Assembly (NCBI RefSeq): GCF_000814765.1
Contig: NZ_JWIC01000006.1
Coordinates: forward strand, 372,001-436,000
Length of the DNA: 64,000 nucleotides
Direction: 5' to 3'
DNA from: Pseudoalteromonas luteoviolacea
GTDB lineage: Bacteria > Pseudomonadota > Gammaproteobacteria > Enterobacterales > Alteromonadaceae
The notes under the pieces were generated by a model. It searched no databases. It was given only the letters and a program-made list of their open reading frames with translations, and was not told the DNA's origin. Shown in pieces: positions 11,462 to 62,411 of the stretch; the first letter of the stretch is position 1, and every line of letters begins with the position of its first letter. Position numbers and translations under genes: made by a program.

Positions 11462-11638
11462 TGTTTTGGAGACGCCCTAAAACTTCTTGTTGTTAAAATG
11501 GTTATAGCCTAACAGGATGGCTCAAAATGAACAAAAAAAATTGTCTTCTACTACGAAAAAATTGTGATGTTTTGTCTGGTTTTGAGTTAACATTGTGCAA
11601 ATAACTCTAATTTTAAATTGTGCGAGGGAGAACTGCGG

Positions 11639-14600
11639 ATGTTTTCAATGCGTTGGTTTAGCACCATATTTATGATATTCCTTCTAACAGCCTGTGGCGG
11701 AGGTGGCTCAATTGAGAAAAGCTCCTCTGGTGACGGCGGTACTGATACAGACGATTATGCACTTGCATTAAGTCTTAACTCTCCAAGTGGTTCTTCCGAG
11801 CTAAGTGTTTCAAATCCGATTCAAGTTCAGGCCAAAGTAACCAAAGATGGTCAAGCTCAAGCTGATAGGTTAGTCAAATTTGTTGGGGATGAATTCTCTG
11901 AATTTAATGGCTCGTCATCAGTTCTAACCAATAGTGAAGGTATTGCTATTGTTGGCATCGTTGCAAACAGTAACCAAGGGGCAGGTGCCATAACCGCATC
12001 TTTTGATGTGAATAGCCAAACTCTTACCCAAAGTATCGAATACGCAGCGATGGGCGATGGGGGCATTCAAATTGCACTTGAGTTTAAAGATGCCAGTGGT
12101 AATGAAATCAATACTGAAAACAAACTGGCTGGAGAAAATGCGGCAACAGTGATGGCGACTTTGACAAATAATGGAGTCGCTCTATCTAACCAGTTATTGA
12201 CCTTCACATTTGACGAACTGATCAGCACAACCAGCAATGGTAAAATCGTCACGAACGCCAATGGTCAAGCCAGTGTGCAAGTTAATGCCACGCAGCAAGT
12301 TGGTGCGGGGACTATTTCTGTCACTTATGAAGATGCGTCAACAGCCTTAAATTTTGCGTCTGATGGTTATGAGTTCTTCAATCGGCAAGTTTATGATTTG
12401 TCTGTTGTGGGATTAGACGCGCAAGGTCAAGAAACCAGTGAGTTATCTCTTAATACACCAATCGCTATTCGCGCCACGTTGACGCTTAATGGTAAGCCTG
12501 TCGCTGATGAGCCACTCACGTTCAGTGTTGATAAAGCACTTATCGGCACTGTGACAAACGTATTGAAGACAGACAGTAACGGTTCTGTGACATTCAACCT
12601 AATTGATAATAATGAATCTGGTGTGGGGGTATTAAATGTATCCTTTGATGCGCCTGGCGATGTTGAAGATGTGTCTTCCGCATTTAGCTTTGAAAGTGAA
12701 GGAGATGGCGGTTTACAGCTGGGTGTATCTATTACAGATTCAAACGGTGCGGTTATCTCTGATCAAAACAGGCTTGGTACAGGAAAAAATGGCTCTGTCA
12801 CAATCTTGCTTGAAGATAACGGTCAGCCTTTGTCCGACGTGATAGTGACTGTAAATGGAGGTACTAAAGCGGTAACAATTCCTTCAGATGGCAAAGTGGC
12901 GACTAATCAACAGGGGAAAGCGATTTTGACACTTGTGCCTAATACGTTGTCTGGCGTTGATACACTGACTGTAACTTATGCGACTGAGTCAGAAACGGTG
13001 ACTCGTACTGTAAATTATCATTCTAATGGTGATGAATTTTTCGGTATAGAAAAGTATGAAATTGCACTTACTGGTGAAACCGCAAGCGGTGCAACTTCAA
13101 ATCAGTTGTCATTTTCGAACCCACTTACAGTCCGTGCTTTATTGACGCTCAACGGCTCGCCTGTATCTGGTCAAAACATCAATTTCACGGTTAATGACAA
13201 AGGCTTGTTATCGAGCAGTGTTTTGGAAACTGGTACGGACGGCTTTGCTGCGGTGGTATTAAGTGAAAACAATGTTGATGGTGCGGGGGTTGTCACTGCA
13301 ACTTATACGACAGAAGATAATGTCGTTATCACGAAGGCGTTTAATTTTATCAGTGCCGGTGACGGTGGATTGCAAATGACGTTGACGGTTAACGACCAAA
13401 CCACTGATAAAAACCCGATAAGTCAACAAAATCCGCTTAACGGCACGACTCGAGGCATGATTGAAGTTACGCTTTCTAATAATGGCACTTTGGTGAGCGG
13501 AGCAATTGTTAACGTGGCCGCTGGTGGAAAAGCAGTAACGGTACCTTCAGATGGGCAAGCCGTGACCCAATCCAATGGGCAAGCATCTTTAGAGCTTGTC
13601 GCTAATAAAGAGACTGGCATAGGTCAACTGTCTGCTACTTATACCGATCCGGTCACCTCGGAGACTGTAACTGAGCAGTATATCTATTATTCAGAGGGAG
13701 ATCCTGACTTCAGTGACTCTGAGTTTGAGTTATCAATTGTTGCACGCAACGCCTCGGGCATTGAATCGAACGAGCTATCAGGTGACTCTGAATTGACGCT
13801 AAGTGCGACTCTATTACAAAACGGTTCTGCGTTTGAAAATCAGCTAATCCAATTTTCAGTCAATGAATTTGGTACTTTAGACCCTCAATCTGGCTCTGTT
13901 TTAACAAATTCATCTGGCGTTGCCGTTATTAAGTTAAAAGACAATTCGGTACAAGGGGCGGGCAGAGTGACTGCCACGTTTACCTCAAGCAGTGGCGTGA
14001 ATGTATCACGCAGTTTCAACTTTAATAGCCAAGGCGATGGCGGCTTACTATTGGTTATTGAGTCAATCATAGGTAGTAACGGCCAGGCAATTTCACAAGA
14101 TAATGTGATTAGCAAAGACCAAATAGGCGTAGTCACAGCACGGTTGACGGAAGATGGGCAACCGGTGACCAAGTCACTGGTTACGTTCACGGTAGATGAC
14201 GTTGCAACTATGGATCCGGAAAGTGGACGTGCAGAGACTGATAGTGAAGGTAGGGCTCAGGTTAATTTATTGACAACACGTGTTGCGGGTGTCGGTGAAG
14301 TCTTTGCTGAGTATGAAGGACTGAGAACGAACAATGCCTTGTTCCACTCTAAAGGTGATGCTGAAACGATAGATGGCAATTACAGTTTTGATATTCAGTT
14401 GCTGACAGGTTGTAACGATGATTGGGATTCGGTTCGAAATGATATCAATAACCCGATAGATCCCATTACTGGCGGTTGTACTATTGTGACAAGTGTAGAT
14501 TCAAGTGTGATCCCTGAGTTATTTATTCGCATAACACCTGTAACAGATGATGCAGAAGACGTTGACAATCAAATCATTGAAATCACCACTGATAAAGGGC

Positions 14601-25560: not shown

Positions 25561-28023
25561 TTAGGCTAGGTCTTCTTGTGTGTCCGTGTGGTCGCGTTTA
25601 TGATGCGCTGCGATTTCAGTGGCCAGCTCTTGTTTCGAGCGTTTCTCGGTAAACTTTCTTGTGGTTAACCAGTAAAAAAATAGTGGTACGAAGAATACCG
25701 CTAAGAAGGTAGCAGCCATCATACCACCCATCACACCGGTGCCAACGCTGTGCCTAGCGCCAGCCCCAGCACCAGAACTGAGAACGAGCGGCACCACGCC
25801 TAATATAAACGCCAGTGATGTCATTATGATGGGGCGGAACCTTAGTCTGGCAGCCTCAAGTGCAGCAGCGCTGGCACTCCAGCCTTGTTGGTGTTTCATC
25901 AGAGCGTATTCGACAATTAAAATGGCATTTTTACTAGCAAGCCCGAGAAGGGTAACAAGACCAATTTGGAAATACACGTCATTGGTAAGACCTGCTATCC
26001 AAATTGAGACAAGTGCGCCAAAGGTGCCAAATGGCAGTGCTAATAAAACGGATATCGGTAAAGACCATCGTTCGTACAAAGCGGCAAGAATTAAAAACAC
26101 CATGACAACGGCTAGACCAAGCGCAAGCCCAGTTGTGCCAGAACTTCGTTTTTCTTGGAATGCAGACGCAGTCCACTCAAACGTCATATCTGGTGGAAGT
26201 ACCTCAGCTGCAATGCGCTCGATTTCAGCGATCGCCTGTCCTGAACTATAGCCTGGCGCCGCATTCCCCATTAACTTGACTGCTGACAGGTTGTTATATC
26301 TGTGTAAGCTTTCAGGACCGCGAGAAAACTCTATGTCAGTAAACGCAGAGATGGGAACCATATCTCCTTGATTGTTCTTTACATAAATGCGGCCAACATC
26401 TTGTGGTGACATTCTAAATTGAGCCTCTGCAGACATGATGACCTGCCATGAGCGACCAAATTTATTGAAATCATTCACATAGTAATTACCTAGGTTTGCT
26501 GCAAGCGCATTAAATGCAGCGTTAATATTCACGCCCATCGCTCTGGCTTGCTCTCTGTCCATATGCACTTGGAGTTGCGGTGCATCAGGTCGCCATAGTG
26601 TTTGTAATCCCCCCAAAATAGGGCTTTGCTGAGCTGCATTCATCATTAGCTGCATACCTTGCTTTAACTTTTCAGGGTCGGCACCTGTCTTGTTTTGTAA
26701 GTAAAACTCAAAACCACCAGTAGAGCCTAAACCAAAGATTGCAGGAGGGTTAAAAGCGAGGACTAATGCTTCTTTGATGTGAGCTGTTTTCATAAACAGC
26801 TCACCCACAAGTGCCTTTGAGTCAACTTCACGTTCATCCCAATGCTTTTGTGTAATGAATAAGGTCGCAGCATTATTTTTATAGCCACCCCCTAAAAAGT
26901 CAAAACCGGTGAATGCAACAACATTCTCGTTTGCAGGGTTTGACTGCGCAGCTTCAATAACTTGTTTTGTCACCTCTGTCGTGCGCTCAAGAGACGTTCC
27001 ATCAGGTAAGAAAACAGCGCTGATGTAAAACCCTTGATCTTCATCTGGTACGAGTGAGCCTGGCGTTTTTTGCCACATAAAGATGGTTGTACCAACCATC
27101 GCTGACATGAGTACAAAACCCAGTGCGCCGCGACGGATCATAAAGCTCACTGAACCGACATACTTACCTGTAATGCGGGTAAACCAATCATTAAACCATA
27201 AGAAGAATCGTGCGGTTTGTTTATCTTCATGTTTTAAAATCAAAACACATAGGGCAGGCGTCATTGTCAATGCAACTACACCTGATAAACTGACAGAGAT
27301 TGAGATGGTAATGGCAAACTGTCGGAATAGTTCACCGGTTAACCCGCCTAAAAAGGCGATAGGAATAAACACCGAGCATAATACGAGTACAATTGCGACC
27401 ACAGGACCACTGACTTCTTCCATCGCTTTGTAAGCGGCTTCTCGGGCGCTGACATGTTGCTCATGCATGATACGCTCGACGTTTTCCAATACAACGATGG
27501 CATCGTCAACGACAATACCAATTGAAAGTACCATACCGAATAGGGTCAAAGTATTGATTGAATAACCCAGCATGTACAGACCTGCAAAAGTCCCAATTAA
27601 AGATACAGGTACGGCGAGCGTTGGAATTAAAGTCGCACGCCAGTTTTGTAAAAACAGGTATACTACTAAGAAAACCAGCACCATGGCTTCACCAAGTGTG
27701 ATTAAGACTTCGCGAATAGATACTTCTACAAAGCGTGTTGTATCGTAAGAATTGATGTGAGCAAGGCCTTGTGGAAATTGTGCTTTTAGCTTTTCAATTT
27801 CAGCTTCAACTTCATTGGCTACATCTAACGCATTGGCGCCAGGTTGTAAGAAGATACCCAGTAATACAGCATCTTTGCCATTGATAGTCCCGTTGAAGTT
27901 ATAATCTTTTGAACCGAGTTCAACACGTGCAATGTCTTTGAGTCTTAAAGTTGAGCCATCTGCATTCGTGTAACGCGCGCTTTGAAATTGGAAAAAAGTA
28001 CGTTTGAATTTAGACATACTCAT
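25561..28023 (-). pseudogene. AcrB-type RND efflux permease, 5'-truncated at the prophage end
   Basis: The 820-residue frame matches AcrB-type pumps from about AcrB residue 255 to the end: NADGSTLRLKD, YDTTRFVEVSIREV, the TM4 proton-relay aspartates in VVDDAIVVLENVE, the central loop, and the C-terminal half through GVMGGMMAATFLAVF. Family members are about 1030-1050 residues, so TM1 and most of the first porter domain are missing. The present start (ATG with AAAGGTGGG before it) supplies only about a dozen unrelated residues. The prophage tail-fibre gene ends 33 bp upstream, and no periplasmic adaptor (AcrA-type) gene is next to it, as would be normal. Almost certainly non-functional as a pump. 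The remaining frame is clean, suggesting a recent event. Confidence 0.8.
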
Positions 28024-28055
28024 TCCCACCTTTAATTATGTTAAATAAAAACTGT

Positions 28056-38716: not shown

Positions 38717-39988
38717 CTATTTGATTCCGAGCTTTTCAAAAATCCTTATTCTGCGTTGTTTATCCGGCCATGCATTGAAGTAAAGAAAGATATTACTAAG
38801 CTGGTGATCTGTAAATGTAGCTGTCAATTCATGCCTAATATGCTCTAATGCCAAAGCTTCGGCATGTTCAGCTATTGAAATAAAACTCGTTAACGTGCGG
38901 GTTATGTTAGTTTCTAAAGAGTCGATTGAATTCAAGTTCGCTTCTGATGCATTCCAAAGCATAATGTCAAAGGCTAAATCCAAATGTCCGCTATTAACCC
39001 AGTATGAAGACTTTCGTCTCAGTCCGCTATTTCCAGTATTCAAATGTTCCAACCAGCTTTGCTGTTGAACTCGGTAAATAATATAGTTACTTATATCAAT
39101 AAGGTCACGCTCTAAACTCTTATTGTCTACTATTGTCATTGGTATTGAGGCAGAAGTACCACTTTTAAAGTCTTTTGAACCCTTGACAAGGTTTAGAAGC
39201 TTGCCAACATGTTCAGGTATATATGCTAATTTTCTATCTACTTGCATAGCAACAATTTCCGCATATGATTTGGATGCGTTTTGAGCACAATAGTGCTTCA
39301 ACTCCATCAATTTTTTTAGTAATAACTCATACTGAAACTTTGCTGTATCTAATTTTTGCTGGTTTTTCAACTGCTCCTTCGTCTCATGCAACTCTGACTT
39401 ACTTGTTTGCCAGGTTAGGAAAATCAAAAACGATGTAATGGCTAACAACGGTGGGGTCAATAAATTATTAAAGTATGTAGCTGTATCTACCCAGGATTTA
39501 TGGGGTGCATCAAGGTCAAGGTCAAAGCGATAGAAGTACACTGTGAGCGCACCAAAGAAGATTGATGCCAAAGTAAGTAGGTATATTAAACCGGCAAGTC
39601 CATAGTGCTTATCTCTTTTCTTAGTGTAATAGATTAGAGATACAAAAAGCAAAGCTAAACACAACACTGTTAATTCAATTAATGTGTGTTCTCCAGCTAA
39701 ACATTTATCTTTCAGTAAAAAACACGATAACTTTTGATTGTTAGGTGTTTTGACGGCAAAAAAGTGAAGTAATATCAAGGCAATAAATAGATACAACACG
39801 CATGCTGATATAACATTTATTTTCCTCTTATGTGAGTCATTTAGAGACGCAAACCAAGCAGGCTGTGGTAACTCTCTTTTTGAACACAATATTTCAATAA
39901 AAAAGTCTCTATGTAAATAAATGAGACCCGTTAAGCCAGGCGAAATTACAATCAAAGCGAATAGAATGTAAAAATGGAGTTCGTTCAT
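38717..39988 (-). CDS. Membrane protein resembling phage abortive infection proteins
   Basis: 423 residues, with four to five predicted membrane helices in the first half (about 5-25, 58-78, 105-122, 130-152, 173-192). A soluble coiled coil follows (SELHETKEQLKNQQKLD), then a helical C-terminal half. This plan (helix pair, LTPPLLAITSFLIFLTWQ, then a coiled coil) resembles the family called putative phage abortive infection protein (putAbiC). The similarity is from memory and not proven. It has a good AAGGA ribosome site and lies inside the tail module but is clearly not a virion gene. AT-rich compared with flanking tail genes. Possible superinfection exclusion or defence cargo. Confidence 0.6.
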   Translation of the reverse strand: MNELHFYILFALIVISPGLTGLIYLHRDFFIEILCSKRELPQPAWFASLNDSHKRKINVISACVLYLFIALILLHFFAVKTPNNQKLSCFLLKDKCLAGEHTLIELTVLCLALLFVSLIYYTKKRDKHYGLAGLIYLLTLASIFFGALTVYFYRFDLDLDAPHKSWVDTATYFNNLLTPPLLAITSFLIFLTWQTSKSELHETKEQLKNQQKLDTAKFQYELLLKKLMELKHYCAQNASKSYAEIVAMQVDRKLAYIPEHVGKLLNLVKGSKDFKSGTSASIPMTIVDNKSLERDLIDISNYIIYRVQQQSWLEHLNTGNSGLRRKSSYWVNSGHLDLAFDIMLWNASEANLNSIDSLETNITRTLTSFISIAEHAEALALEHIRHELTATFTDHQLSNIFLYFNAWPDKQRRIRIFEKLGIK

Positions 39989-40985: not shown

Positions 40986-41924
40986 ATGGCATCATTGGAA
41001 GAAGCATATAGCACTGAGTATCAGGAAATCATTGATCCTGAGTTAGCATATGATCTCTATTGGGCAGGCATCATAACTGATAAGTCAGCTTTTGAGTGCC
41101 CTGGTGATAAATGCGATGCAAAGGTTACATGCATAAACCTCGACCAGGAAAAACAGGATATGCGTCAGTCTCCGCATTTCAGAGGATACAACCATTCTGA
41201 CAGTTGTGACGCAACATTTGGCCAAGATCGCCCCCCTGGTGAAGAGTCACCTCAAACACCTGCTCAATCAAAATTTGTAAAAAGTGACGTAATATCTGAT
41301 ATCTTTCACTTAAAGCGTCCAAAAAATCAATTCGCAAAGAAAGACCCAAAAGGTATAGACCCAACGAAGGAAAAGAAAAAAAGTCGTCGAAGGGGAAGGA
41401 ATATAACAGGGGATGAACTCTACGGAGGTTCTAAATATTACTCTGTCCGCTCTCTAGTGTCTAAGTTTATTCGATATCGAAAAAATGACTCATTAACCGA
41501 ATACAACGTTAATATTAATGGCAAAGATGTTAGCTACAAGTCATTGTTCAAAGGAGTTTATCAACAGCCTTTGGAGGCATTACCTGATGAAAACTTAATT
41601 TATTGGGGAGTTGCGTTTATTGATTACTTGGACAAGCAAAAATGCTACAAGATTAGTTTTGTTCAAACATTAGAACATAATGGAGACAATTTACGACCTT
41701 CATTTTTTGTATCTGAAAATATGATTGCTGACTACCCAGTAAAAAACCTTGTAGTTAAAAGGTTAAACAAATTGTCTAAAGAAAAAGATAAAAGAGCATT
41801 TATTTTCATCTATTCAAAACCCCGCTTTGCTGGAGGAAAATATATTAACTTTCAACTAGATAGTCTAGACTATCTTGAAATACGCTACTTGGATCTTTTT
41901 GAAGAGCTGGTAAAGAAGACATAA
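40986..41924 (+). CDS. Unrecognised protein with N-terminal zinc-finger-like motif
   Basis: 312 residues, good ribosome site (AAGGAG, 6-base spacing). Near residues 39-76 it has CPGDKCDAKVTC and then HFRGYNHSDSC, a Cys/His cluster that could bind zinc. This is followed by a basic linker (KEKKKSRRRGRNITG) and a C-terminal alpha/beta domain (residues about 145-310, including LIYWGVAFIDYLDKQKCYKIS). No family recognised. The plan of a zinc motif, a basic linker and a globular domain suggests a nucleic-acid-directed protein. It ends 21 bp before, and is convergent with, the tape measure gene. AT-rich cargo. Confidence 0.65.
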   Translation: MASLEEAYSTEYQEIIDPELAYDLYWAGIITDKSAFECPGDKCDAKVTCINLDQEKQDMRQSPHFRGYNHSDSCDATFGQDRPPGEESPQTPAQSKFVKSDVISDIFHLKRPKNQFAKKDPKGIDPTKEKKKSRRRGRNITGDELYGGSKYYSVRSLVSKFIRYRKNDSLTEYNVNINGKDVSYKSLFKGVYQQPLEALPDENLIYWGVAFIDYLDKQKCYKISFVQTLEHNGDNLRPSFFVSENMIADYPVKNLVVKRLNKLSKEKDKRAFIFIYSKPRFAGGKYINFQLDSLDYLEIRYLDLFEELVKKT

Positions 41925-52707: not shown

Positions 52708-52905
52708 ATGAAAGAGCAAGAAGGACAACCAATTGAAATATGCAATGAGTCATTTAACGAAGCATTAAACTCGGGTAAGTCTATTACTCAAACCAATAAA
52801 ACTGAAAATATGATTATTTATGATCTTACAATCTCAGGGGTTAAAGTGAGTGTAGAACTTGCACCCAAACATTCATTGAGCCTTTCGCTCGCTGACAACA
52901 AATAA
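52708..52905 (+). CDS. Unrecognised 65-residue protein, prophage cargo
   Basis: Preceded by AAAGGGAG at slightly long spacing. Small soluble protein, polar first half and a beta pair (MIIYDLTISGVKVSVEL). Last of three plus-strand cargo genes; its stop lies in the first arm of the shared terminator. Confidence 0.5.
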   Translation: MKEQEGQPIEICNESFNEALNSGKSITQTNKTENMIIYDLTISGVKVSVELAPKHSLSLSLADNK

Positions 52906-52924
52906 AAGCCGCAGGTGCGGCTTT
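52905..52924. terminator. Bidirectional terminator between cargo genes
   Basis: AAAGCCGC / GCGGCTTT with a 4-base loop. On the minus strand it runs into TTATTTGTT and would end the repressor-linked cargo operon; on the plus strand it ends the small cargo genes. Confidence 0.75.
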
Positions 52925-52949
52925 GTCCTTTAATTAGTGTTTTTGCTAA

Positions 52950-53426
52950 CTAACCCTCAAGAATACGTAATTCACTGTATGTTTCATCCAGCTCCACAAC
53001 CTCGCACTCTTTGACTGTTTCTGCAACAAATCCGTTTATCATTTTTAAATTGGTCCAAGAATACCAAGCATCATCTGACTTTCTTCCAGAAGACCTTAAA
53101 CTATCCTCAATAAAGAGGATTTTTTCTTCTCCCGTTTGCCTCGGCGAAATATCTAAGAGTGAACCATTTTCTTTTATAACAGCGTGAAATTCAGCCTCTA
53201 TAAAAGACTTTTTTGGATCTTCCCAAATCTGCCAACCATAAACTACTTTAGCGCCAGTTTTCTTGCTCTCCAATTCACAGTTATTGAAACAGTAGCCTGC
53301 ACGATAACTTTTGTCGCGTGCTGTTAACCTCAAAAACGTGGAGTTCTTGTGATCTAAGTTTAATTCTTGAATTAATGATTTTACTCGCCCATTGATTTTT
53401 TTAGGCGTTTTTGGTTTTAAATGCAT
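52950..53426 (-). CDS. Unrecognised 158-residue protein, last of the lysogeny-linked operon
   Basis: Soluble protein containing VVYGWQIWEDPKKSFIEAEFHAV, a motif I have seen in uncharacterised bacterial proteins, and a preceding GYCFNNCE cysteine pair. Function unknown. It follows the YecR-like lipoprotein gene by 87 bp on the same strand and precedes the terminator. No obvious ribosome site. Confidence 0.6.
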   Translation of the reverse strand: MHLKPKTPKKINGRVKSLIQELNLDHKNSTFLRLTARDKSYRAGYCFNNCELESKKTGAKVVYGWQIWEDPKKSFIEAEFHAVIKENGSLLDISPRQTGEEKILFIEDSLRSSGRKSDDAWYSWTNLKMINGFVAETVKECEVVELDETYSELRILEG

Positions 53427-53513
53427 ATTTATATCTAGACTTCTTTAACTTATTTTACGAGAGCCAAAACAAAGCTATCGTTTGCTCTCGTACTTTTTCT
53501 ACTTCAAAAAAGA

Positions 53514-53828
53514 CTACTGTTGGCCAGTACACTGGTACTCTTTTGTAACCAACCAAGAGTTACAACCATTGGCCGACGGGGAATTACAGTTTTTTGTTAT
53601 TCCGCCGAACGCCTCTGCGCTTGAATAACCCCATGCCTGACACCGTTTTGACGCGAGTCTTATTGCTTGCTCTTCATTTACTGTAGGCGACTCAAATAAC
53701 CCATATTGATAAGAAAGCTTTACTGTACCGTCAGATTTACTTCCGCCTGTAGCAGACCAGTCTTTTTGAGTCGACATACAACCCGTTGCGAATAAAGCTA
53801 CTAGTGATACCATCAATGCTTTTTTCAT
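53514..53828 (-). CDS. YecR-like lipoprotein
   Basis: 104 residues with lipobox LFATGC (cysteine at 17) and the YecR-family pattern: WSATGGSKSDGTVKLSYQYGLFE, then EEQAIRLASKRCQAWGYSSAEAFGG. The mature part has several cysteines likely to be disulfide-bonded. YecR in enterics is a flagellar-regulon lipoprotein of unknown job; here it sits in prophage cargo. Ribosome site GAGGAG. Confidence 0.85.
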   Translation of the reverse strand: MKKALMVSLVALFATGCMSTQKDWSATGGSKSDGTVKLSYQYGLFESPTVNEEQAIRLASKRCQAWGYSSAEAFGGITKNCNSPSANGCNSWLVTKEYQCTGQQ

Positions 53829-53891
53829 TTCTATTTTCTCCTCGTCCTGTGAGTGCAGAGTTATTAGGCTGGACGTTAAACCTAATAATCA

Positions 53892-56588
53892 TCAAATCCT
53901 TTCAATAAGCTTTTTATTATCGCTACTTTCGCCAACGGGCCTGTTTCGCTCGATAATTGGAAACACCATGCGGATCGTAGAGCCTTTTTTTGAAGCTTTG
54001 ATACTAAACTTAGTTTTGTACACTTTGGCAATTTGCTTCATGTTGTAAAACCCAGAGCCAAAATTTAGCTTGTCCAATAGAGTGATGCCTCGGCCATCAT
54101 CTTCAACACATACTTCAATGGTTTTATGTTGCAATATTAAGCTAGCGTTTACGTTCTTGGCTCTCGAATGCTTTATTGCATTTCTTACAGAGTGATATAA
54201 AACCAAGTAAATATCGTGCTCTAGTTGGTTATCGAATCTCTCATCTCCAACTGTAGATTTAATTTTTACGTTCATAGCTAGCTGCATTGAAGCATGTATT
54301 TGCAATATATTAATACCAGCGGATAAAGGCTGCTTTCCTAAACTGGCAATGTCATGAGCTATTGGTTCTAACTTTTCTATGATGTAGGCCATTTTGACCA
54401 ACCCTTCCGTTAGCATCGTATCATTCCCGCTGCTGCAAAGTGATTTAGCATCAACCATATTCACGTATGCTTCAGTTACATTAGATTGTTGGAAGTGTTT
54501 TTGATTTCTACGATACACACTGTGAAAACTCTGCACCCATTTATAGACTAAATAGAAAGCTGATATACTTAAAATGAACGTAAGTAATAAATATATAGCC
54601 AAAGCTGCATTCGATTTATAAAAAGGAGCTATAACCTCAAACATATACTCAGTTACATCACTTATTTCATTTCCCTGGATGTATCTAAACCTCAAAGTAT
54701 GAGTTTTTTCTTTGAGCTCACTTAAAGTCAATATGGCTGAGTCTAGTTGAATCCAATCACTTCCGTTATGGCTATATTGATAAGTGCCTTTTTTCTCAGA
54801 CACAAAGTCAAAAGATGAGATCGCAACCTTAAGCTTACCATCACCGAGAGAGAGAAATTCAGGCTCAGGAAGTAGGCCTAATTCAGATTCTATAAACACT
54901 ATTTTGGGCTGTATAGGTTTATCATCAATTGACTTGGGTATTTCAATAAGACCTTTATCACTTACAGCTATGAGCTTATCACCAACAAGCTTTATACTGC
55001 TGGTGCTAAATGAGTCTTGTAAAGTACCTTGTATTGCAATTGTATAGTTATGCGCATTGCTTACTTTGTGAAGACCATTCGTCGTTTTTATAAAAAGCTC
55101 TTCCCTTGTTACATTCAATTCGACTATATAGCTAGGGGAGGGAACTGATTGCCATGTATTATCAATTTTCTTGAACAAGCCTTTTCCATAAGTTGACAAA
55201 AACAGCTCGTTATTAAGCTCCGCAACATCCGTAACCATTACAGATTGTTCAAAATCCAAAATAGAATTTCCTGAACGGTCTGCAACGATTAACCCACTAG
55301 CAGTACTTATATATGTTTTTCCAGAATGCCTATCAACATTTAAAACCTCCAAGGACGGAAGCGAATTATTGTATTGTGATGAATCAAGTTGAGTGAAGTG
55401 ACTACTGAAAAGTTTTACCCCTTCGCTGTTAGTGGCCAAGTAAAGACTGTTCTCAATTACCGATGCATTAATGACATGACTATCAATTAGCCTTGTTACG
55501 GTTTTTGCTGCAACATTAACCTTGAAAGCTCCCAAGCTTGTAGAAACAATTAGGTGACCACTAAAAAGTTCGAATGAATTTATTGAATAGTTCATTTTTG
55601 GCATTTTTTCGATTAGCCAGCCAACTTTAATAAACTCGTTATTAACATATTTATATATCCCTTTACTCGTACCTATCCATATTTCACCATTTACATACTC
55701 AATAGCATTGTATTGAGAGTCTAAATGAAGGTCCGCAATTTTATTTTGGCCATCAACACGTACAAAGCTGTTTATACCTACTCCCCATAAGGTATTACTT
55801 TTATCTACGAATAAGTTACGGTAAGACATTGGTTGGCTCGCAATGTTTTTACGTTTTATTTTTAAGGTATTTATGTTCAACTCACTCACATTGCCAGCAC
55901 TGGTATAATACAACTGATCAGGTGGTATGAAGGTAAGGTTCTCAGCTGAGCTGATGTCCTCATTTTTTATTGATGATTGTTGACCATTAGAGTAATAATA
56001 CAATGTTGAATTAATGCTATACGCTACACCATGTGGTGTCGCTTCTAAGTTTCCTTTATGTACTCGACCATTTTCCAGCTTTCTTACACCTAATTCAGAG
56101 TACACATACAACCCATCTTCACTTAGAAAATATACATGCCCATAGCCAGAGTCTATATCAAACAACTTGATATCTTTATTAAATATAGTGTGCGCTAATC
56201 CGTTATTTACGTTAACTTTTACAATCTGCGTGTCCATCATAGCGAAGATGCTGTTGTTGTTTACAGCCAACTTATACGCACCAATGTCAGATACCTTTGT
56301 TGCTTGATAGCCATTTAAATTAACTTTCCAAAGCTCTCCATTTTGGTACAAAGCAATTAAATAGTTAAGCTCAGGCATAAACTGTACATCTATGACCATC
56401 CCATTAGGCAACTGCGTAAATCTACTCATGCTCGTAAAATGTTCACCATCGTAGCGGTAAACTCCATCATGAGAAGAAAAATACATCAGTTGCCTTTCAT
56501 CTTGTGCAACTGTATTTAAATGTTTCATTTGCATAGACAAACAGTTTGCACTGAGCACTAGCGCAAATAGGAAAAATAGACCACGCAT
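53892..56588 (-). CDS. Propeller-type sensor kinase without obvious H-box
   Basis: 898 residues. A signal peptide (GLFFLFALVLSANCLS) is followed by a long beta-propeller sensor (about 25-590; recurring YRYDGEHFTSM, LYVYSELGVRKLENG, IWIGTSKGIYKYVNNEF). A Y_Y_Y-like domain (about 600-660), one membrane helix (about 668-690) and a C-terminal HATPase follow, with N-box NAIKHSRAKN, G1 DDGRGI and GFYNMKQIA. The region between helix and ATPase has no clear DesK/NarX- or HisKA-type phospho-acceptor motif; only AHDIA is a weak candidate. No response regulator gene is adjacent. It is an unusual cargo for a prophage and lies downstream of the CI-like repressor. Confidence 0.8.
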   Translation of the reverse strand: MRGLFFLFALVLSANCLSMQMKHLNTVAQDERQLMYFSSHDGVYRYDGEHFTSMSRFTQLPNGMVIDVQFMPELNYLIALYQNGELWKVNLNGYQATKVSDIGAYKLAVNNNSIFAMMDTQIVKVNVNNGLAHTIFNKDIKLFDIDSGYGHVYFLSEDGLYVYSELGVRKLENGRVHKGNLEATPHGVAYSINSTLYYYSNGQQSSIKNEDISSAENLTFIPPDQLYYTSAGNVSELNINTLKIKRKNIASQPMSYRNLFVDKSNTLWGVGINSFVRVDGQNKIADLHLDSQYNAIEYVNGEIWIGTSKGIYKYVNNEFIKVGWLIEKMPKMNYSINSFELFSGHLIVSTSLGAFKVNVAAKTVTRLIDSHVINASVIENSLYLATNSEGVKLFSSHFTQLDSSQYNNSLPSLEVLNVDRHSGKTYISTASGLIVADRSGNSILDFEQSVMVTDVAELNNELFLSTYGKGLFKKIDNTWQSVPSPSYIVELNVTREELFIKTTNGLHKVSNAHNYTIAIQGTLQDSFSTSSIKLVGDKLIAVSDKGLIEIPKSIDDKPIQPKIVFIESELGLLPEPEFLSLGDGKLKVAISSFDFVSEKKGTYQYSHNGSDWIQLDSAILTLSELKEKTHTLRFRYIQGNEISDVTEYMFEVIAPFYKSNAALAIYLLLTFILSISAFYLVYKWVQSFHSVYRRNQKHFQQSNVTEAYVNMVDAKSLCSSGNDTMLTEGLVKMAYIIEKLEPIAHDIASLGKQPLSAGINILQIHASMQLAMNVKIKSTVGDERFDNQLEHDIYLVLYHSVRNAIKHSRAKNVNASLILQHKTIEVCVEDDGRGITLLDKLNFGSGFYNMKQIAKVYKTKFSIKASKKGSTIRMVFPIIERNRPVGESSDNKKLIERI

Positions 56589-56655
56589 AATATTATATCC
56601 GTTAATGATCGGCCCTCATGTAAAGGGCCTCACGTCCTAGTTCTTTATTGATTAT

Positions 56656-57183
56656 TTATTGTACTTGGTGAGGGTTATGTATTTTAGTCCCACATCCTGC
56701 CGCTAACACTGGCACAAATGTGTCTATGGAAGTTTCACTAACATCTTGACTGTCACCATTATATGAACCCAGTGTATCACGAGTTAACACTTTGTGAACT
56801 TTGTTGGTGTATTTATTTTGCCAAACGACAGGTTGCTCTCTTGGAGCAATTACAAATAAGTAGGTTGGTTTTCTTGGGTCGGACTCGTGTTTTTTATTAT
56901 TCCAAGCGTCCATCACTTGTTTACCGAACTGTTCTCCATACAAATGTGTATAAGCGGCTGCAAGTATTTTTGCACCGGAATCGCTCATGATCATCATTGC
57001 AGTATCTTGGTAGTCACTACCACAATCAAATGAAACATCTACATTCATTAGTCTACCATCAGGTAAAAGTAGATCTGCATTCATATGTTGTACACGAGCT
57101 CGGTCAGGTAATGGTTCAATGGCTTGTGTGTTTGATGCCAAAGCCCCAGCTAGTAGTGCGAAAATTCCCGAAAGTAATTTCAT
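56656..57183 (-). CDS. Secreted protein downstream of the repressor
   Basis: 175 residues with a signal peptide (FALLAGALASNTQA) and a mature domain with two cysteines (SFDCGSDY and AAGCGTK) that may pair. The gene starts 11 bp after the repressor stop with an AAGGA ribosome site, so it is probably co-transcribed with the repressor and expressed in lysogens. No family recognised. Being periplasmic, it could be the ligand or partner of the propeller sensor encoded next. Confidence 0.65.
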   Translation of the reverse strand: MKLLSGIFALLAGALASNTQAIEPLPDRARVQHMNADLLLPDGRLMNVDVSFDCGSDYQDTAMMIMSDSGAKILAAAYTHLYGEQFGKQVMDAWNNKKHESDPRKPTYLFVIAPREQPVVWQNKYTNKVHKVLTRDTLGSYNGDSQDVSETSIDTFVPVLAAGCGTKIHNPHQVQ

Positions 57184-57194
57184 TTTATCGTCCT

Positions 57195-57665
57195 TTAAGC
57201 CATGTATAGAGCTCCCTCCGCGGCTGTTTTTACCATGACCTCATTGAATTGATATTCAAATGTTTTTTCAAACAACATCGGTCTCAGTTTACCACGAATG
57301 AATAATTCCCTATCAGCGGGCAAGTTTTTTACAAACATTAAGTCATCAAGTATTTTTTCCACCAATGCATTTGCAGCAACAGCATCAGATACGTCAAAGG
57401 CTTGGGTTTTATCTTGTGACTCCACACCTTGGTTATTATCCCGTTCTACATTCACACCAAATACATGGTTGAGATCGATTTTCCGATCTGCGCAAGTTTT
57501 CACGATTCCTTCCCAAGGCAAAGATTGCCTATTTCTTGCGTTCCTGACAGCTGAAGGGGATAAACCTAAAATTTCAGATAGTGCACTATCGCTTGTTACA
57601 TTGAGCAATTTATACAAACGTTCGTACACAGCCTCAATATCAAAATTAACGGTTTCAGATAACAT
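57195..57665 (-). CDS. CI-type phage repressor
   Basis: 156 residues with an N-terminal helix-turn-helix of the phage CI repressor family (DSALSEILGLSPSAVRNARNRQSLPWEGIVKTC) followed by a short C-terminal helical domain; no LexA-like protease domain, so induction would not be by RecA cleavage. Good AAAGGTG ribosome site. Divergent from the Ner-like gene across an operator region and upstream of the cargo operon. Maintains lysogeny by blocking early transcription. Confidence 0.85.
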   Translation of the reverse strand: MLSETVNFDIEAVYERLYKLLNVTSDSALSEILGLSPSAVRNARNRQSLPWEGIVKTCADRKIDLNHVFGVNVERDNNQGVESQDKTQAFDVSDAVAANALVEKILDDLMFVKNLPADRELFIRGKLRPMLFEKTFEYQFNEVMVKTAAEGALYMA

Positions 57666-57798
57666 AGCACACCTTTAATACATATGTATAGTAAAATATA
57701 TTTGTATCATTTTACTGTAAATAACTTGACTCCGATTGATACAGGTGTATTGTTTATGTGTAGTTTAAATATACAAATGAACCAATGGAGTCATACAA
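57666..57798. promoter_or_regulatory. Lysogeny switch region with repeated operators
   Basis: Between repressor and Ner-like genes lie copies of ATACA-NN-TGTAT: ATACATATGTAT (57678-57689, perfect), ATATATTTGTAT (57696-57707) and ATACAGGTGTAT (57739-57750, perfect). Half-sites ATACAAATGA occur at 57771 and 57793. The third operator lies between a -35 TTGACT (57726) and a -10 TATTGT (57748) of the probable early promoter. The first two cover a plausible leftward promoter. Confidence 0.75.
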
Positions 57799-58110
57799 AT
57801 GAGTAACTCTCAAAAGTTAACATCTCGTGAGATTATAGAAAAGTTAAAACCGAAAGATATTTGCTTAACAGACATAGCTGAAGCCCTTGAACTTAGTCCT
57901 AGTCACGTTTCTAGAATAGCGTCAGGTGATGCAAAATCTCTTCGTGTCGCACAAGCAATTTGCAACGCTCTAGAAATGCCAATCCATGAAGTATTTGGCA
58001 AATCCTATGAACCTAAAAATAGAGGCCCGAGAAAAAGCCAAATTGTCAAAGCCATTAGGCAGGGCACACCAATACCTCCTCCTCTAACAATTACACAGCC
58101 CTCAGAGTAG
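57799..58110 (+). CDS. Ner-like early regulator
   Basis: 103 residues, with a Ner/Nlp-type helix-turn-helix at about 20-65 (DICLTDIAEALELSPSHVSRIASG; KSLRVAQAICNALEM) and a proline-rich tail. First gene of the plus-strand early operon. In Mu-like phages Ner turns down both early and repressor promoters to commit to lysis. The last operator half-site overlaps its start codon. Confidence 0.82.
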   Translation: MSNSQKLTSREIIEKLKPKDICLTDIAEALELSPSHVSRIASGDAKSLRVAQAICNALEMPIHEVFGKSYEPKNRGPRKSQIVKAIRQGTPIPPPLTITQPSE

Positions 58111-58138: not shown

Positions 58139-58561
58139 ATGTCTAATAATGAAAAGTTCGACAGCGTTTTTAGTTGCCATACACCACCCGATTGCGTGGT
58201 TTTACACCAGTTTATACACTGCGTTAACGCTTGTATGCGTCGCTGCGGCTACACTCGTACTGGGCTGGCGGAAAGAATGAATGAAGCATTAAAAGTGCAT
58301 CAAATTGAAGTAGATGAAGGTAAATTGAATAAATGGTTCGCTCCAAGCCAGCCTACAGCTATGCCAATCCATTACCTACCAGCGTTACTGTGGGCTGTTA
58401 AAAGTACGGAACCTGCTGATGTTTTACTTGCTCCATTAATGTATACGGCTGTAAATGAGCGAGCCCTTAAGCTCAAAGAAGTTTCTGAGTACGAAGTTCA
58501 GATCAGGAAGTTACAGCAAGAAAAAGAGTCACTCCTCGACGATATCAAAATCGATACTTAA
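58139..58561 (+). CDS. Early phage protein, possible DNA-binding
   Basis: 140 residues, AAGGAG ribosome site. Helical, with CGYTRTGLAERMNEALKVHQ and EGKLNKWFAPSQPTAMPIHYLPALLWAV resembling a helix-turn-helix plus anchor, and a C-terminal coiled coil (VQIRKLQQEKESLLDDI). Family not recognised. Lies 28 bp after the Ner-like gene in the same operon. Confidence 0.7.
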   Translation: MSNNEKFDSVFSCHTPPDCVVLHQFIHCVNACMRRCGYTRTGLAERMNEALKVHQIEVDEGKLNKWFAPSQPTAMPIHYLPALLWAVKSTEPADVLLAPLMYTAVNERALKLKEVSEYEVQIRKLQQEKESLLDDIKIDT

Positions 58562-58629: not shown

Positions 58630-59533
58630 TCAGCATGTAAAGGAACTAGTAAACCAAGAGTCTCAAAATGAAATCAATCATCAGATTGCTCAGATAGATT
58701 CTCCACTTAACATTGTGATGCCAAGCACAATAGAAGAGGCGATGGACCGTGTTGTTTTTCTCGCAAATAGACAATTTACTGACAATGCCGAAATGGGGTT
58801 TCTCTTACTTAAAATCAAAGCTGAGACAGATCACGGGAAATTCAATTCTCTGCTACATGAGCGAGGTATTCATCGCCGTACAGCAAGTAGGACTATGGCA
58901 ATAGCAAAAATGCTAAATGGGCTACCAAAATCCAAAGTGGACACAGTGTCCCTTTTGAATTTTAGTCAAAGACAGCTTACAGAGCTTGCAAAAGTTCCTA
59001 TAGAGACTCTTAAAGAGCTAGATGATCAAGATTACGAAATCTTAGCTGAAACCTCTGGAAGTGCTATCAAGCAACAAGTTGCAGATCTGATGAAGGAACG
59101 TGACGGCTTTCAGGAAGCAGCAGCTAAGGCCATCAACGAACTTGAACATGAAAAGCTGCGTAAAGTGCCTTCTGTTCGGTTCGACATGCCTGTGTTTATA
59201 AGCGAAATGCGCAAGGACGCGATTTGTAATACGGAGCTTTTAGATGAAGCACTGGTAAATACGATCACGCAAGTGGGCCAGCTTTGCGATAACCGACAAT
59301 TGGACTTTGATACCCGCGTGAGCGCAGCGCAAGTTTTGCACCACACCTGGGCCGCGATATATAGCCAAGTTGGCAATATTCTTGAGCGTTTAAGTGGCGA
59401 ATTCTCGGGTCATATTGAAGGCATTGAACACCTACCAAAATTTACCAAAGCAGAGTGGCAATACGTAGATACTGAACGTAGTCGGCTACTTGAACAATTT
59501 CTTTTAGAAAAACAAAGCAAGGAGGTACGCTAA
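58622..59533 (+). CDS. DUF3102-like early protein
   Basis: 303 residues. The segment GFLLLKIKAETDHGKFNSLLHERGIHRRTASRTMAIAKML (residues about 59-97) matches the DUF3102 pattern of helical proteins common in phages and plasmids. The rest is helical with a coiled-coil-like middle. GGAG ribosome site. Its stop overlaps the transposase start (TAATG). Role in transposition or replication is plausible but unknown. Confidence 0.7.
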   Translation: MSNQHVKELVNQESQNEINHQIAQIDSPLNIVMPSTIEEAMDRVVFLANRQFTDNAEMGFLLLKIKAETDHGKFNSLLHERGIHRRTASRTMAIAKMLNGLPKSKVDTVSLLNFSQRQLTELAKVPIETLKELDDQDYEILAETSGSAIKQQVADLMKERDGFQEAAAKAINELEHEKLRKVPSVRFDMPVFISEMRKDAICNTELLDEALVNTITQVGQLCDNRQLDFDTRVSAAQVLHHTWAAIYSQVGNILERLSGEFSGHIEGIEHLPKFTKAEWQYVDTERSRLLEQFLLEKQSKEVR

Positions 59534-61179
59534 TGCATCCTGCTGTTATTAAATTCAATAGTTTAAAGCTCGCAGACAGTGATATCACTTGGGCTAATGC
59601 GACTGATAAAGCACGTAAAACAGCGCAGAATAGGACCATTTTTGTTAAGCATTTGCTGTCTAGTGGCTTAAGCATTGATAAAGCAAGACAAGCTCTTGTG
59701 ACTGCATTGGACCAGCACTTGGTTACGCCTGCATTACACCAGGCAATAAGTTATTTAGGCAAAGTGCCAACACGAGCCACGGCACATAACTGGGTAAAAG
59801 CCTATAAAGAAAAGGGCACTGAGGGGTTACTACCTAACAATAAAGGGAGGGTTGCAGCACCGCCGCCATGGGCTGCAAAAGCGCTCGAAATTTATCATAG
59901 TCCTAACTCTTTAAGCTTTGCGTTTGTAGCAAGGGACCTAAATAAAATGGGCTATAAAGTCGATGCGGCCCAAGTGAGGCGTTTTATAAACTCTATGCCC
60001 CACGAGCTAGGCCCACAAAGCCCGTATCGGGTCGGCACTAAAATCTATGCTGATAAACACAAAGATTTTAAGTTGCGAACGACAAAGAATATACCCGCCG
60101 GATTCATATATAACGGTGATGGCCACACAATAGATGTGCACCTTGAGCACACCGAAAGTGGCGAGTCATTTAGGTATGAGTTAACGGCATTTCAAGATGT
60201 TCGCAGCCGAAAAATAGTCGCTTGGGATTTGAGTATTGCTGAGAACTCGTTAGCAACACTACGAGCACTGACTGACTCAATAAAAGACTTAAATCATAAG
60301 CCTTATTTGATTTATGTTGATAACGGCTCTGGCTACAAAAACCACATGATGTGCGATGAAAACTGTGGTGTGTATACCCAGTTAGATATTGAGCCTATTT
60401 TTGCAATCCCTGGGAACGCGCGTGCTAAATGGATTGAGCGTTTTTTTCGAAACATGGAAGAAAACGTGGGTAAACGCTTCGAGACATATTGTGGCCGTGG
60501 CCATGATAACCGCCACTTGCTTAAAGTGCTCAAAGAAGTGAAACAAGGCAAGCGCAGTTTACCCACACTAGAAGATTGGATTGCCGAGTTTGAAGCCTGG
60601 CTTGAGGAGTATCACAACAGTGAGCACCCAGAAGAAAAGGGCAAAACGCGCAATCAAGTCTGGGAAGAAAGCTTTGAGCAAAGTATCCCTGAAACCATCA
60701 ATTTTGAGTATTTACCTAAGACCATTGTAAACGTACGCAAAGGTCAAATTAGGTTCGATAACCGCATCTATTCAGCTGACTTTTTATATCAGTTTAATGG
60801 CAAACAGCTAGTTGCTGGCTACAGCATGAAGTCATCTGAGCGCATACACCTGTACGAAGTGACGGGCGAGTTTTTAATGTATGCCTTTCTTAAAAGCAAG
60901 GTTAAGGCTGTGCCTGATTCTCGTATCGACCAACGTAGGCTTGAACGTAAAGAGAATCGCAAAAAGCGCTTGACTAAAGAAATCCAAAAAATTGAGCGTG
61001 AAGACTCTCTCACACGCATTGTGGATGTTGAAGAAGTCGAGCTCATTGAAGCTGAGACAAAAACACTGCCACTCAAGGAGCCTGAGCGCCTTGATATGGA
61101 TATTGCAGACTTTGTGATTGAGCCAATACCAACACCGAAGCAACCCAACTCTATCGACTTATTTGGAGAAGACCAATGA
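59533..61179 (+). CDS. MuA-type transposase
   Basis: 548 residues. N-terminal winged-helix/HTH region (about 20-105), then an RNase-H-like core with the DDE triad D196 (NGDGH), D263 (YVDNGSG) and E302 (KWIERFF), and a C-terminal non-specific DNA-binding/activation domain with a highly charged tail. Starts in the stop of the previous gene and overlaps the MuB gene by 4 bp. Cuts phage ends and joins them to target DNA for integration and replicative transposition. Shorter than Mu A (663), lacking part of the end-binding domain as in other family members. Confidence 0.93.
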   Translation: MHPAVIKFNSLKLADSDITWANATDKARKTAQNRTIFVKHLLSSGLSIDKARQALVTALDQHLVTPALHQAISYLGKVPTRATAHNWVKAYKEKGTEGLLPNNKGRVAAPPPWAAKALEIYHSPNSLSFAFVARDLNKMGYKVDAAQVRRFINSMPHELGPQSPYRVGTKIYADKHKDFKLRTTKNIPAGFIYNGDGHTIDVHLEHTESGESFRYELTAFQDVRSRKIVAWDLSIAENSLATLRALTDSIKDLNHKPYLIYVDNGSGYKNHMMCDENCGVYTQLDIEPIFAIPGNARAKWIERFFRNMEENVGKRFETYCGRGHDNRHLLKVLKEVKQGKRSLPTLEDWIAEFEAWLEEYHNSEHPEEKGKTRNQVWEESFEQSIPETINFEYLPKTIVNVRKGQIRFDNRIYSADFLYQFNGKQLVAGYSMKSSERIHLYEVTGEFLMYAFLKSKVKAVPDSRIDQRRLERKENRKKRLTKEIQKIEREDSLTRIVDVEEVELIEAETKTLPLKEPERLDMDIADFVIEPIPTPKQPNSIDLFGEDQ

Positions 61180-62411
61180 ACTTTACTGAGCACTATAGCG
61201 AACTGCAGCAAAAACAAACCAACCTCGTAAACGCAGAAATTGAGTTTTATAACTTAGGCCCAGAGGACTATACATGCGGCTTTAACTTAGAAGATGTAAA
61301 AACTGTATTGGCAGGCAAGTCACCAATTAATCCTAAGAAGATTATCAATGCAGTATGGGAACTGTGCTTTGGTGACTGCGACCCAAAGGCGTTTTCAGAA
61401 GAAAGTGGCTTTAGTCCCGTTTATAAAGAAGATGATAAGTTGATGGTTGCGCGTATTAAGAAGCGTATGCGAGCCTCTGATATTAGCGGGCAAGGCATAA
61501 CCAGCGCAGACTTAGCGCGCAAAATGGGCCGCACAGCAGGCTTTATTAGCCAACTATTAAACGGAAAATACACAGCAAACCCCACACAGCATCTACATGA
61601 CATTTTTGCACAAGTATCACCGATAGATACCAGCGAAGTTGAGGTAACAAATATCGCTGAAGAAGAGCGTATACGTCTTCGCTACGGTGAATACCCATTC
61701 GTCGAAACCAGTATTTCTAAAACCATTAATGTGTCTTGCCAACAAGCAAGAGAGCGCCGCCGTATTTCTGTTTTTGCAGGTCAAGCTGGCCTTGGAAAGA
61801 GTATGGCCGCAAAGCAGTATGCTGAACAACACAGTGACGACACGATACTGATTGAAGGCTCTGAGCTCACAACTGTGACTGAAATATTAGAAACGCTTTG
61901 TATTGCATTGAGTCTTACGCCCAAAACATCTGGCTCACGTAACGTTAAAGCAATTTGTAAGGCGCTGCGTGGCTCTGACAAGTTAATCATCTTAGACGAA
62001 GCAGATAAGTGTAAACCGAATTCTTTGGACCCGCTAAGAACCATATCTGACCAAGCCTATGTTGGCGTGATGCTGATTGGCAACCTTGAGTTAGACGAAC
62101 GTATTCAAACCAACCCTAGATACAACCTTATTCGAAGTCGTGTGAGCTTTTTCTATAAACCTCTAGGCGAAGTGCCAGTGAACGATTTAAAAAGCATTTT
62201 TTATGGCTTAACGAGGAACACCGTGCCTGTTGAAGACGACAGCGACACATTTTGGAATTGGTTGCACAAGCGTGTCGAAGGTAATGCTAGAACACTCGGA
62301 GACAATCTGCTCCCCCATGTGCTTACGCAATTTTATAAGTACCCAGAGCGCAAGTTTAATCAAACCATGGTGAATCAAATCCTCACCACGTATTTGAATA
62401 AACCGTATTAA
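61176..62411 (+). CDS. MuB-type transposition ATPase
   Basis: 411 residues. An HTH-like segment (about 105-135, TSADLARKMGRTAGFISQLLNG) precedes the AAA+ core with Walker A GQAGLGKS (202-209) and Walker B LIILDEAD (270-277). The C-terminal domain (about 335-411) resembles MuB-C. It binds target DNA, delivers it to the transposase and gives target immunity. Larger than Mu B (312) by an N-terminal extension of about 90 residues. Confidence 0.9.
   Translation: MNFTEHYSELQQKQTNLVNAEIEFYNLGPEDYTCGFNLEDVKTVLAGKSPINPKKIINAVWELCFGDCDPKAFSEESGFSPVYKEDDKLMVARIKKRMRASDISGQGITSADLARKMGRTAGFISQLLNGKYTANPTQHLHDIFAQVSPIDTSEVEVTNIAEEERIRLRYGEYPFVETSISKTINVSCQQARERRRISVFAGQAGLGKSMAAKQYAEQHSDDTILIEGSELTTVTEILETLCIALSLTPKTSGSRNVKAICKALRGSDKLIILDEADKCKPNSLDPLRTISDQAYVGVMLIGNLELDERIQTNPRYNLIRSRVSFFYKPLGEVPVNDLKSIFYGLTRNTVPVEDDSDTFWNWLHKRVEGNARTLGDNLLPHVLTQFYKYPERKFNQTMVNQILTTYLNKPY

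Follow-up and report, generated by a model that had tools for sequence, protein, structure and literature searches.

Why a Mu-like prophage should carry the gene for a large membrane sensor directly behind its repressor gene is the question raised by the stretch of Pseudoalteromonas luteoviolacea DNA analysed here (64,000 nucleotides, positions 372,001 to 436,000 of contig NZ_JWIC01000006.1; hereafter the window), which comes from a genome of 6.06 Mb. The repressor, CI156, is followed on its strand by an exported protein (sec175), the sensor, a YecR-like lipoprotein and a 158-residue protein. An earlier note, made from the sequence alone, had described a repressor-linked operon and suggested that its products may form a signal-sensing or lysogenic-conversion module, perhaps one that gates induction. 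We found that the conserved unit consists of CI156, sec175 and the sensor only, and that it is a real, conserved and, as far as our searches show, undescribed variant of a phage immunity cassette, for which a function is predicted below. That the sensor relays an envelope signal to a phage repressor without an SOS-cleavage domain is the function we propose, and we put its chance slightly below even.

The linkage was followed through genomes and virus collections that share strains, so that counts from different collections are not additive. Hidden Markov models were built from the first 20 relatives and the window, and later loci were annotated with them. Because records labelled as viral favour phage contexts, we consider 108 Pseudoalteromonas genomes, one per species, the fairer sample. 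In this set sec175 was found at 21 loci in 21 genomes, 14 of them directly behind an intact CI156 and 7 behind a decayed CI, and 14 of 15 strong CI156 matches (E < 1e-50) had sec175 directly downstream. The fifteenth (genome G049) lies in a Mu-like prophage with an S24 repressor, and the 20 kb fetched there contained no match to sec175 or the sensor. A sensor search gave matches in 62 of the 108 genomes; most were short stretches similar to propellers or ATPases. Few genomes beyond the genus have sec175: of 394 sampled from the order, 8 carry it, including two from the genus itself, and a wider sec175 profile matched 2 of 369 from the class, including the genome of the window.

Virus collections gave the same arrangement. 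At 26 of 26 IMG/VR loci retrieved with sec175, CI156 lay upstream, and the sensor was present at 24 (the contigs of L108 and L114 end), while a search with the CI156 profile showed the linkage at 20 of 21 loci. In the one exception, L140, the usual position is taken by an S24 repressor, and a solitary CI156 homologue, identical to that of G049, lies elsewhere. Three loci (L106, L108 and L110) gave no match to the window's MuA, and the contig of L107 stops short on the MuA side; in L110 a different transposase-like open reading frame (ORF) was recognised by reading. The wider sec175 profile (A6) revealed no new phage type in IMG/VR (25 loci, judged from the list of matches), and the sensor had no tblastn match in 50,697 annotated phage records.

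The gap between CI156 and sec175 ranged from -50 to 19 bp across 34 module loci with 27 distinct sensors. Of 25 modules, 3 have a gene for the YecR-like lipoprotein downstream of the sensor and 1 has the gene for the 158-residue protein there (census of MuA relatives, described below; L176 shows only 239 bp past the sensor), so both were dropped as module parts and are variable cargo. The earlier note had suggested looking for the same gene set next to CI repressors elsewhere, and conserved linkage was indeed found in other Pseudoalteromonas Mu-like prophages; it extends to the secreted protein and the sensor, not to the lipoprotein and the 158-residue protein. The note's description of the locus is thus confirmed, with a narrower conserved unit than proposed, and its interpretation partly supported.

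To see what occupies the repressor slot in related phages, we collected 46 loci of MuA relatives from IMG/VR, found by pattern and not exhaustively, with flanks of up to 8 kb. L152, L167 and L169 are cut ahead of the slot. In the remaining 43 it holds CI156 and sec175 (26 loci), an S24 repressor (14) or a 140-residue XRE repressor (3; L171-L173, e.g. L171 5582-6004 on the minus strand, 83-100% identical to L171). The sensor was seen in 25 of the 26 CI156 slots, the contig of L155 ending in sec175, and in none of the 43 slots was an S24 CI found together with the sec175-sensor pair within the fetched flanks. All 14 S24 repressors have the motifs GDSM and FVKRI. On a MuA tree of 42 rows, from which the three cut loci and L189 (split MuA) were left out, the module label needs 6 changes, 6 of them forced by starred branches.

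Nearly the same MuA accompanies the XRE repressor in L173, the S24 repressor in L174 and the module in L176 and L184. When L184 was compared with L174, the flanking DNA was 90.9% and 97.2% identical around a differing block at 1971 to 7584 of L184, whose ends lie about 450 bp beyond the sensor stop and roughly in the middle of the ORF o303, and which includes the sensor. Across 11 pairs compared, the right edge of the block ranges from o140 into o303; the left edge rests on L184 and L174, because the left flank is unaligned over a long stretch in several pairs. As a control, we took the gene adjoining the S24 repressor, with ORFs picked mechanically, and it belonged to 8 families over 14 phages. 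We conclude that sec175 and the sensor are parts of the CI156 cassette rather than of a general cargo site.

CI156 and the S24 repressors that alternate with it in this slot differ in the S24 domain. CI156 of the window matches the Phage_CI_repr helix-turn-helix (HTH) domain slightly below the cut-off (E 7e-4, 20.4 bits; cut-off 22), and all 14 family members have a match to it at E<=0.1. A Pfam search found the Peptidase S24 domain in none of the same 14, and as a positive control PF00717 was found in 4 of 4 tested S24 repressors of the sister phages. The letters GxSM occur in 9 of 67 CI156 matches (overlapping collections); in the two aligned rows that show them they read GISM and lie inside the HTH domain. 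According to the part of PMC8541194 consulted, S24 in Mu-like repressors correlates with mitomycin C inducibility, so CI156 may need another trigger.

A possible reader of such a trigger is the sensor. A structure model of good local but limited global confidence (predicted local distance difference test, pLDDT, 83; predicted template modelling score 0.52) contains a signal peptide, propellers, a Y_Y_Y-like domain, one transmembrane helix (about residues 660-682, a reading of helix 660-699), short helices and an ATPase domain. In this model two propellers and the Y_Y_Y domain would lie on the periplasmic side. Its closest PDB folds are the periplasmic domains of BT4663 (E 1e-29), BT4673 and BT3049. 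HATPase_c is matched above its cut-off in the window sensor and the HATPase domain in 22 of 27 members, Y_Y_Y in 10 and Reg_prop in 7 (all E<=0.01), neither of the last two in the window sensor.

The earlier note had read the N and G boxes as intact with no clear phospho-acceptor, and named a profile search for HisKA as a check. HisKA families had no match in the window sensor at E<=1 or in any of the 27 members, window included, at E<=0.01, and HisKA_3 was detected twice elsewhere in the same genome, which served as a control. No conserved His precedes the N-box in 21 aligned sensors. The G boxes are intact and the N-box reads YHxxxN, with His where a host HisKA_3 kinase (L223, a single contrast) has Glu, which we take to be the catalytic base. 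No response regulator or other output adjoins the sensor in the window operon, the only place where one was sought. As no H-box was found, the reading of the sensor as a canonical kinase was dropped.

Some pieces of the sensor C-terminus were not assigned to a module: two fragments with 41% identity near contig ends in G037 (C16:6-782 and C17:23788-24579), a genome with no sec175 match, and a 42-residue piece with 83% identity in G031 (C1:2502547-2502672). Lone near-identical CI156 homologues were found in L140 (7977-8453, plus strand), L101 (13259-13735, minus strand) and L255 (9301-9777, minus strand; the same as G049 C4). These sit in the cargo of S24-repressor Mu-like phages, or behind the sensor of a phage with its own CI, and are possibly borrowed repressors that give immunity to a rival phage.

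In sec175, Cys54 and Cys164 are invariant in 20 aligned Pseudoalteromonas members, and there is a DPRKPT motif. It had no family in Pfam, NCBIfam, PHROG or PADLOC and no PDB sequence match; Pfam searches of 27 members gave scattered weak matches, each in one or two members, and assignment to a known family was rejected. Because the structure model is middling (pLDDT 68) and had no fold match at E<=0.001 in PDB or BFVD, we read no function from it.

Comparison of ten P. luteoviolacea-type modules, two of which duplicate others, showed that their parts have been shuffled. The CI N-terminal domain comes in three types and the sensor periplasmic part in two (55-57% identity between them, 87-100% within), and all four combinations of CI types I and II with sensor types P1 and P2 were found (L054, L097, L055 and L095). 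Between these lies a near-constant core, made up of the CI C-terminal domain (94-100% identity), sec175 (85-100%) and the sensor cytosolic part (81-100%), with break points near CI residue 65 and at sensor residue 720-780, varying by pair. The cro gene tracks the CI N-terminal type only in part, types II and III sharing cro at 92-94% (76-79% for L094). The identity matrix of the CI C-terminal domain correlated with those of the sensor cytosolic part (r 0.91), the CI N-terminal domain (0.78) and MuA (0.66), computed over 33 related rows without a significance test. This pattern fits a putative coupling core that stays constant while input and output are swapped.

These data suggest how the repressor of a Mu-like phage could be wired to the cell envelope in place of an SOS-cleavage domain. 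CI156 would keep the lytic promoters shut, and the lysogen would make sec175, for export, and the sensor from apparently the same transcript. The sensor propellers would face the periplasm and its ATPase-like domain the cytosol. A cue from the periplasm or from outside the cell, perhaps read jointly with sec175, would alter the cytosolic domain, which would act on the C-terminal domain of CI156 and tip the CI/Cro switch. In view of the missing H-box, we expect the output to be a change of conformation, by binding or release, and not a His-Asp phosphorelay. The full scheme, in which a transmembrane non-phosphorelay sensor and its exported partner directly control the repressor, an envelope-gated switch replaces SOS cleavage, and input and output modules are swapped around a constant coupling core, we hold slightly more tentatively than the relay itself. 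The note's suggestion of gated induction is plausible and is the reading that we prefer.

Several observations weigh against such a scheme, of which the strongest is that the pair is retained and conserved without CI, against a role confined to it. Upstream of each of the 7 genus pairs that lack an intact CI, tblastn on 700 bp revealed remnants of CI (E 2e-15 to 0.003, a small target); a genome-wide search of the same genomes recovered a remnant in 3 of 7 at E<=0.001 and intact CI156 in none. The same LN*VFTV stop in 5 of 5 members of one group indicates that CI was probably dead in their ancestor. On a pair tree built by a quick method, placing these solo loci takes 3 changes, of which at least 2 fall on starred branches, and two groups are set apart among phage modules. 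The ratio of nonsynonymous to synonymous substitution rates (dN/dS) in the group of five is 0.05-0.10 for the sensor and 0.05-0.36 for sec175, and in the other group (L048 and L049) 0.10 and 0.17. Purifying selection after CI decay means that the pair does something without CI, possibly a role independent of the switch. Colwellia-type chromosomes also carry the pair (22 loci, L067-L088). The flanks fetched for these loci gave no match to CI156 or MuA, their sensors have degenerate ATP-binding boxes, and nine aligned sec175 rows have no hydrophobic start (by reading) and no Cys54, so that this sec175 seems to be cytosolic.

Other difficulties lie within the phages themselves. Some phage members have lost the ATP-binding boxes, with no HATPase match in L186 (nor in L192), and two of 25 modules (L182 and L189) have a sensor gene whose reading frame is split. 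The 140-residue XRE repressors have no S24 domain (one tested) and have no pair. The constant core could also come from close linkage of homologous DNA. In addition, o140, which we do not propose as a partner, shows a correlation of 0.94 with the cytosolic part of the sensor. Finally, L100 and L101 have nearly identical sensors but different CI and MuA, which shows that recombination can separate the sensor from CI.

The retained pairs keep two other explanations alive. In one, the pair protects the lysogen by superinfection exclusion or abortive infection, as rexA-rexB behind lambda cI; the sensor would detect an envelope disturbance caused by a phage, and sec175 or the membrane protein would block the intruder. 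The pair occupies the same position as rexAB, stays intact under purifying selection after CI decay in two groups apart on the pair tree, and has a sensor periplasmic part of alternative types. We nevertheless consider this rather unlikely. The window proteins had no PADLOC match and no recognisable toxic effector, and a general defence pair should move between cassettes, yet the pair was in 0 of 17 S24 or XRE slots. The periplasmic part likewise gives no hint of an arms race: across nine pairs of closely related phages, dN/dS of the sensor was 0.04-0.13 (periplasmic) and 0.03-0.16 (cytosolic), each in 8 pairs, with the ninth saturated in the periplasmic part, and sec175 dN/dS was 0.02-0.59, which places the phage pairs under purifying selection. 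Rex proteins, as described in the consulted part of PMC11077077, exclude phage and interact with CI and Cro, so protection and sensor-to-CI signalling may both hold. The other explanation is a self-contained sensor that serves the host by lysogenic conversion, for example by reading polysaccharide as the Bacteroides hybrid sensors do, and acts on a host protein while CI only gives lysogen-specific transcription. The fold matches to BT4663, BT4673 and BT3049, retention without CI and the position beside miaB (named by reading; the pair lies ahead of it) in 5 of 5 Colwellia-type loci inspected agree with this. It is unlikely, given that no output adjoins the sensor in the window operon, that on phages the pair is tied to one repressor lineage, and that loss of the ATP-binding boxes in Colwellia and some phages leaves its output obscure.

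That the pair is ordinary cargo, riding with one immunity-cassette lineage through physical closeness, is improbable. Other repressors in the slot do have variable cargo behind them, and the YecR and 158-residue genes behave as such. However, 0 of 26 CI156 slots were without sec175, although sensor identity drops to about 21%, the module is also on phages without a match to the window's MuA, and selection on the pair is strong. Signalling from sensor to CI is favoured because CI156 is the cytosolic product that always adjoins the pair in intact phage cassettes.

Pairs in further settings were also noted. L193 and L194 are further Colwellia-type chromosomal loci with the pair. A genome of another family holds two sec175-sensor pairs, L192 4743-10565 and L191 7206-9921; the former adjoins an integrase and a 262-residue ORF, and the sensor of the latter ends ahead of the ATPase domain. 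The 262-residue ORF, ahead of the L192 pair, looks HTH-like by eye but has no Pfam match and was not counted as a repressor.

Features of the locus are listed in the table. The ORFs and coordinates of the earlier note were correct throughout, from repressor to terminator, as was the start of sec175 11 bp past the CI stop. The prophage interrupts an RND (resistance-nodulation-division) transporter gene, the two halves of which flank about 44 kb. The scan of the stretch with the terminator-like hairpin gave 11 such sites against 5.0 (sd 2.3) in shuffles. Two exact ATACAnnTGTAT palindromes at 57678 and 57739 are candidate operators.

Table. Features of the prophage locus, in window positions except where L033 is named
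Feature	Position	Strand	Remarks
RND transporter gene, 3' part	25561-28029		Named by reading
158-aa protein of unknown function	52950..53426	-	PHROG 37148; variable cargo
Terminator-like hairpin closing the strand	52905..52924	-	Hairpin scan
YecR-like lipoprotein	53514..53828	-	PF13992, E 2e-25; variable cargo
Sensor, 898 aa	53892..56588	-	Signal peptide, propellers, Y_Y_Y-like domain, one transmembrane helix, short helices, HATPase domain (in part from the model)
sec175, exported 175-aa protein	56656..57183	-	Signal peptide by reading
CI156 repressor, 156 aa	57195..57665	-	CI-type HTH N-terminal; C-terminal domain of unknown fold; no S24
CI-cro control region	57666..57798	.	Two palindromes as candidate operators
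Cro-type HTH repressor	57799..58110	+	Divergent; within exchanged block
140-aa regulator (o140)	58139..58561	+	PHROG 2345; inside or at edge of exchanged block in compared pairs
MuA- and MuB-like genes	59533-62411		Named by position and reading
RND transporter gene, 5' part	L033 10801-11625 (about window 71.8-72.6 kb)		Named by reading

A strong inverted repeat at 53450-53495 separates the YecR and 158-residue genes, with a T-rich tail on the plus-strand side (by reading). The tail gene region of the prophage holds two extra genes, at 38717-39988 (minus strand; a membrane protein by reading) and 40986-41924 (plus strand; 312 aa). Outside the prophage, 11618-16891 (plus strand) is a lipoprotein-like ORF of 1757 aa with many similar repeats by reading.

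To our knowledge, the triggers of prophages whose repressors have no cleavage domain are mostly unknown. If the sensor signals to CI, a phage repressor would be under the control of a membrane sensor, the phage might consult the state of the cell surface before it leaves dormancy, and the natural chimeras could serve to tell the signal-reading part from the operator-reading part. If the pair instead protects the lysogen, it would be a new kind of protection pair, kept by hosts after phage loss. Near-isogenic phages with S24 or sensor cassettes (e.g. L174 and L184) make the question testable under either reading. Judged by title and the start of the abstract, our searches of the open-licence PubMed Central (PMC) library gave no paper on this gene set or on such a sensor behind a phage repressor, and the consulted main text of PMC8541194 (Mu-like Shewanella prophages) and PMC5498523 (Pseudoalteromonas phages) does not contain 'sensor' or 'histidine kinase'.

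Several known systems resemble parts of the cassette. The ATPase domain of the sensor matches C-terminal parts of NCBIfam models for HPK7-type kinases (NarQ, UhpB, LiaS and MctS), far below cut-offs, and shares with these kinases largely intact N and G boxes; it differs in having no H-box, His for Glu in its N-box and no adjoining response regulator. Its periplasmic propeller and Y_Y_Y architecture is that of the Bacteroides hybrid two-component sensors BT4663 and BT3049, a type that ends in receiver and AraC domains, whereas the phage sensor has no HisKA match and lies in a prophage beside a repressor. The S24 (LexA-like) CI repressors of the same Mu-like phages fill the same slot on near-identical backbones, but carry the S24 domain and have no sec175 or sensor within the fetched flanks. 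The closest parallel in layout is lambda cI-rexA-rexB, in which two genes, one for a membrane protein, likewise lie behind the repressor on its strand and are likely expressed in the lysogen. In the consulted part of PMC11077077, lambda Rex proteins are reported to exclude phage, to push the switch towards the lytic state and to interact with both CI and Cro, and part of PMC12894663 deals with a RexAB-type system of Pseudomonas putida. The window pair had no Pfam or PHROG family match to RexA or RexB, the sensor matching HATPase, propeller and chance families only. Unlike lambda CI, CI156 has no autocleavage, and the genes behind it encode a periplasmic propeller sensor with an ATPase-like domain and an exported partner.

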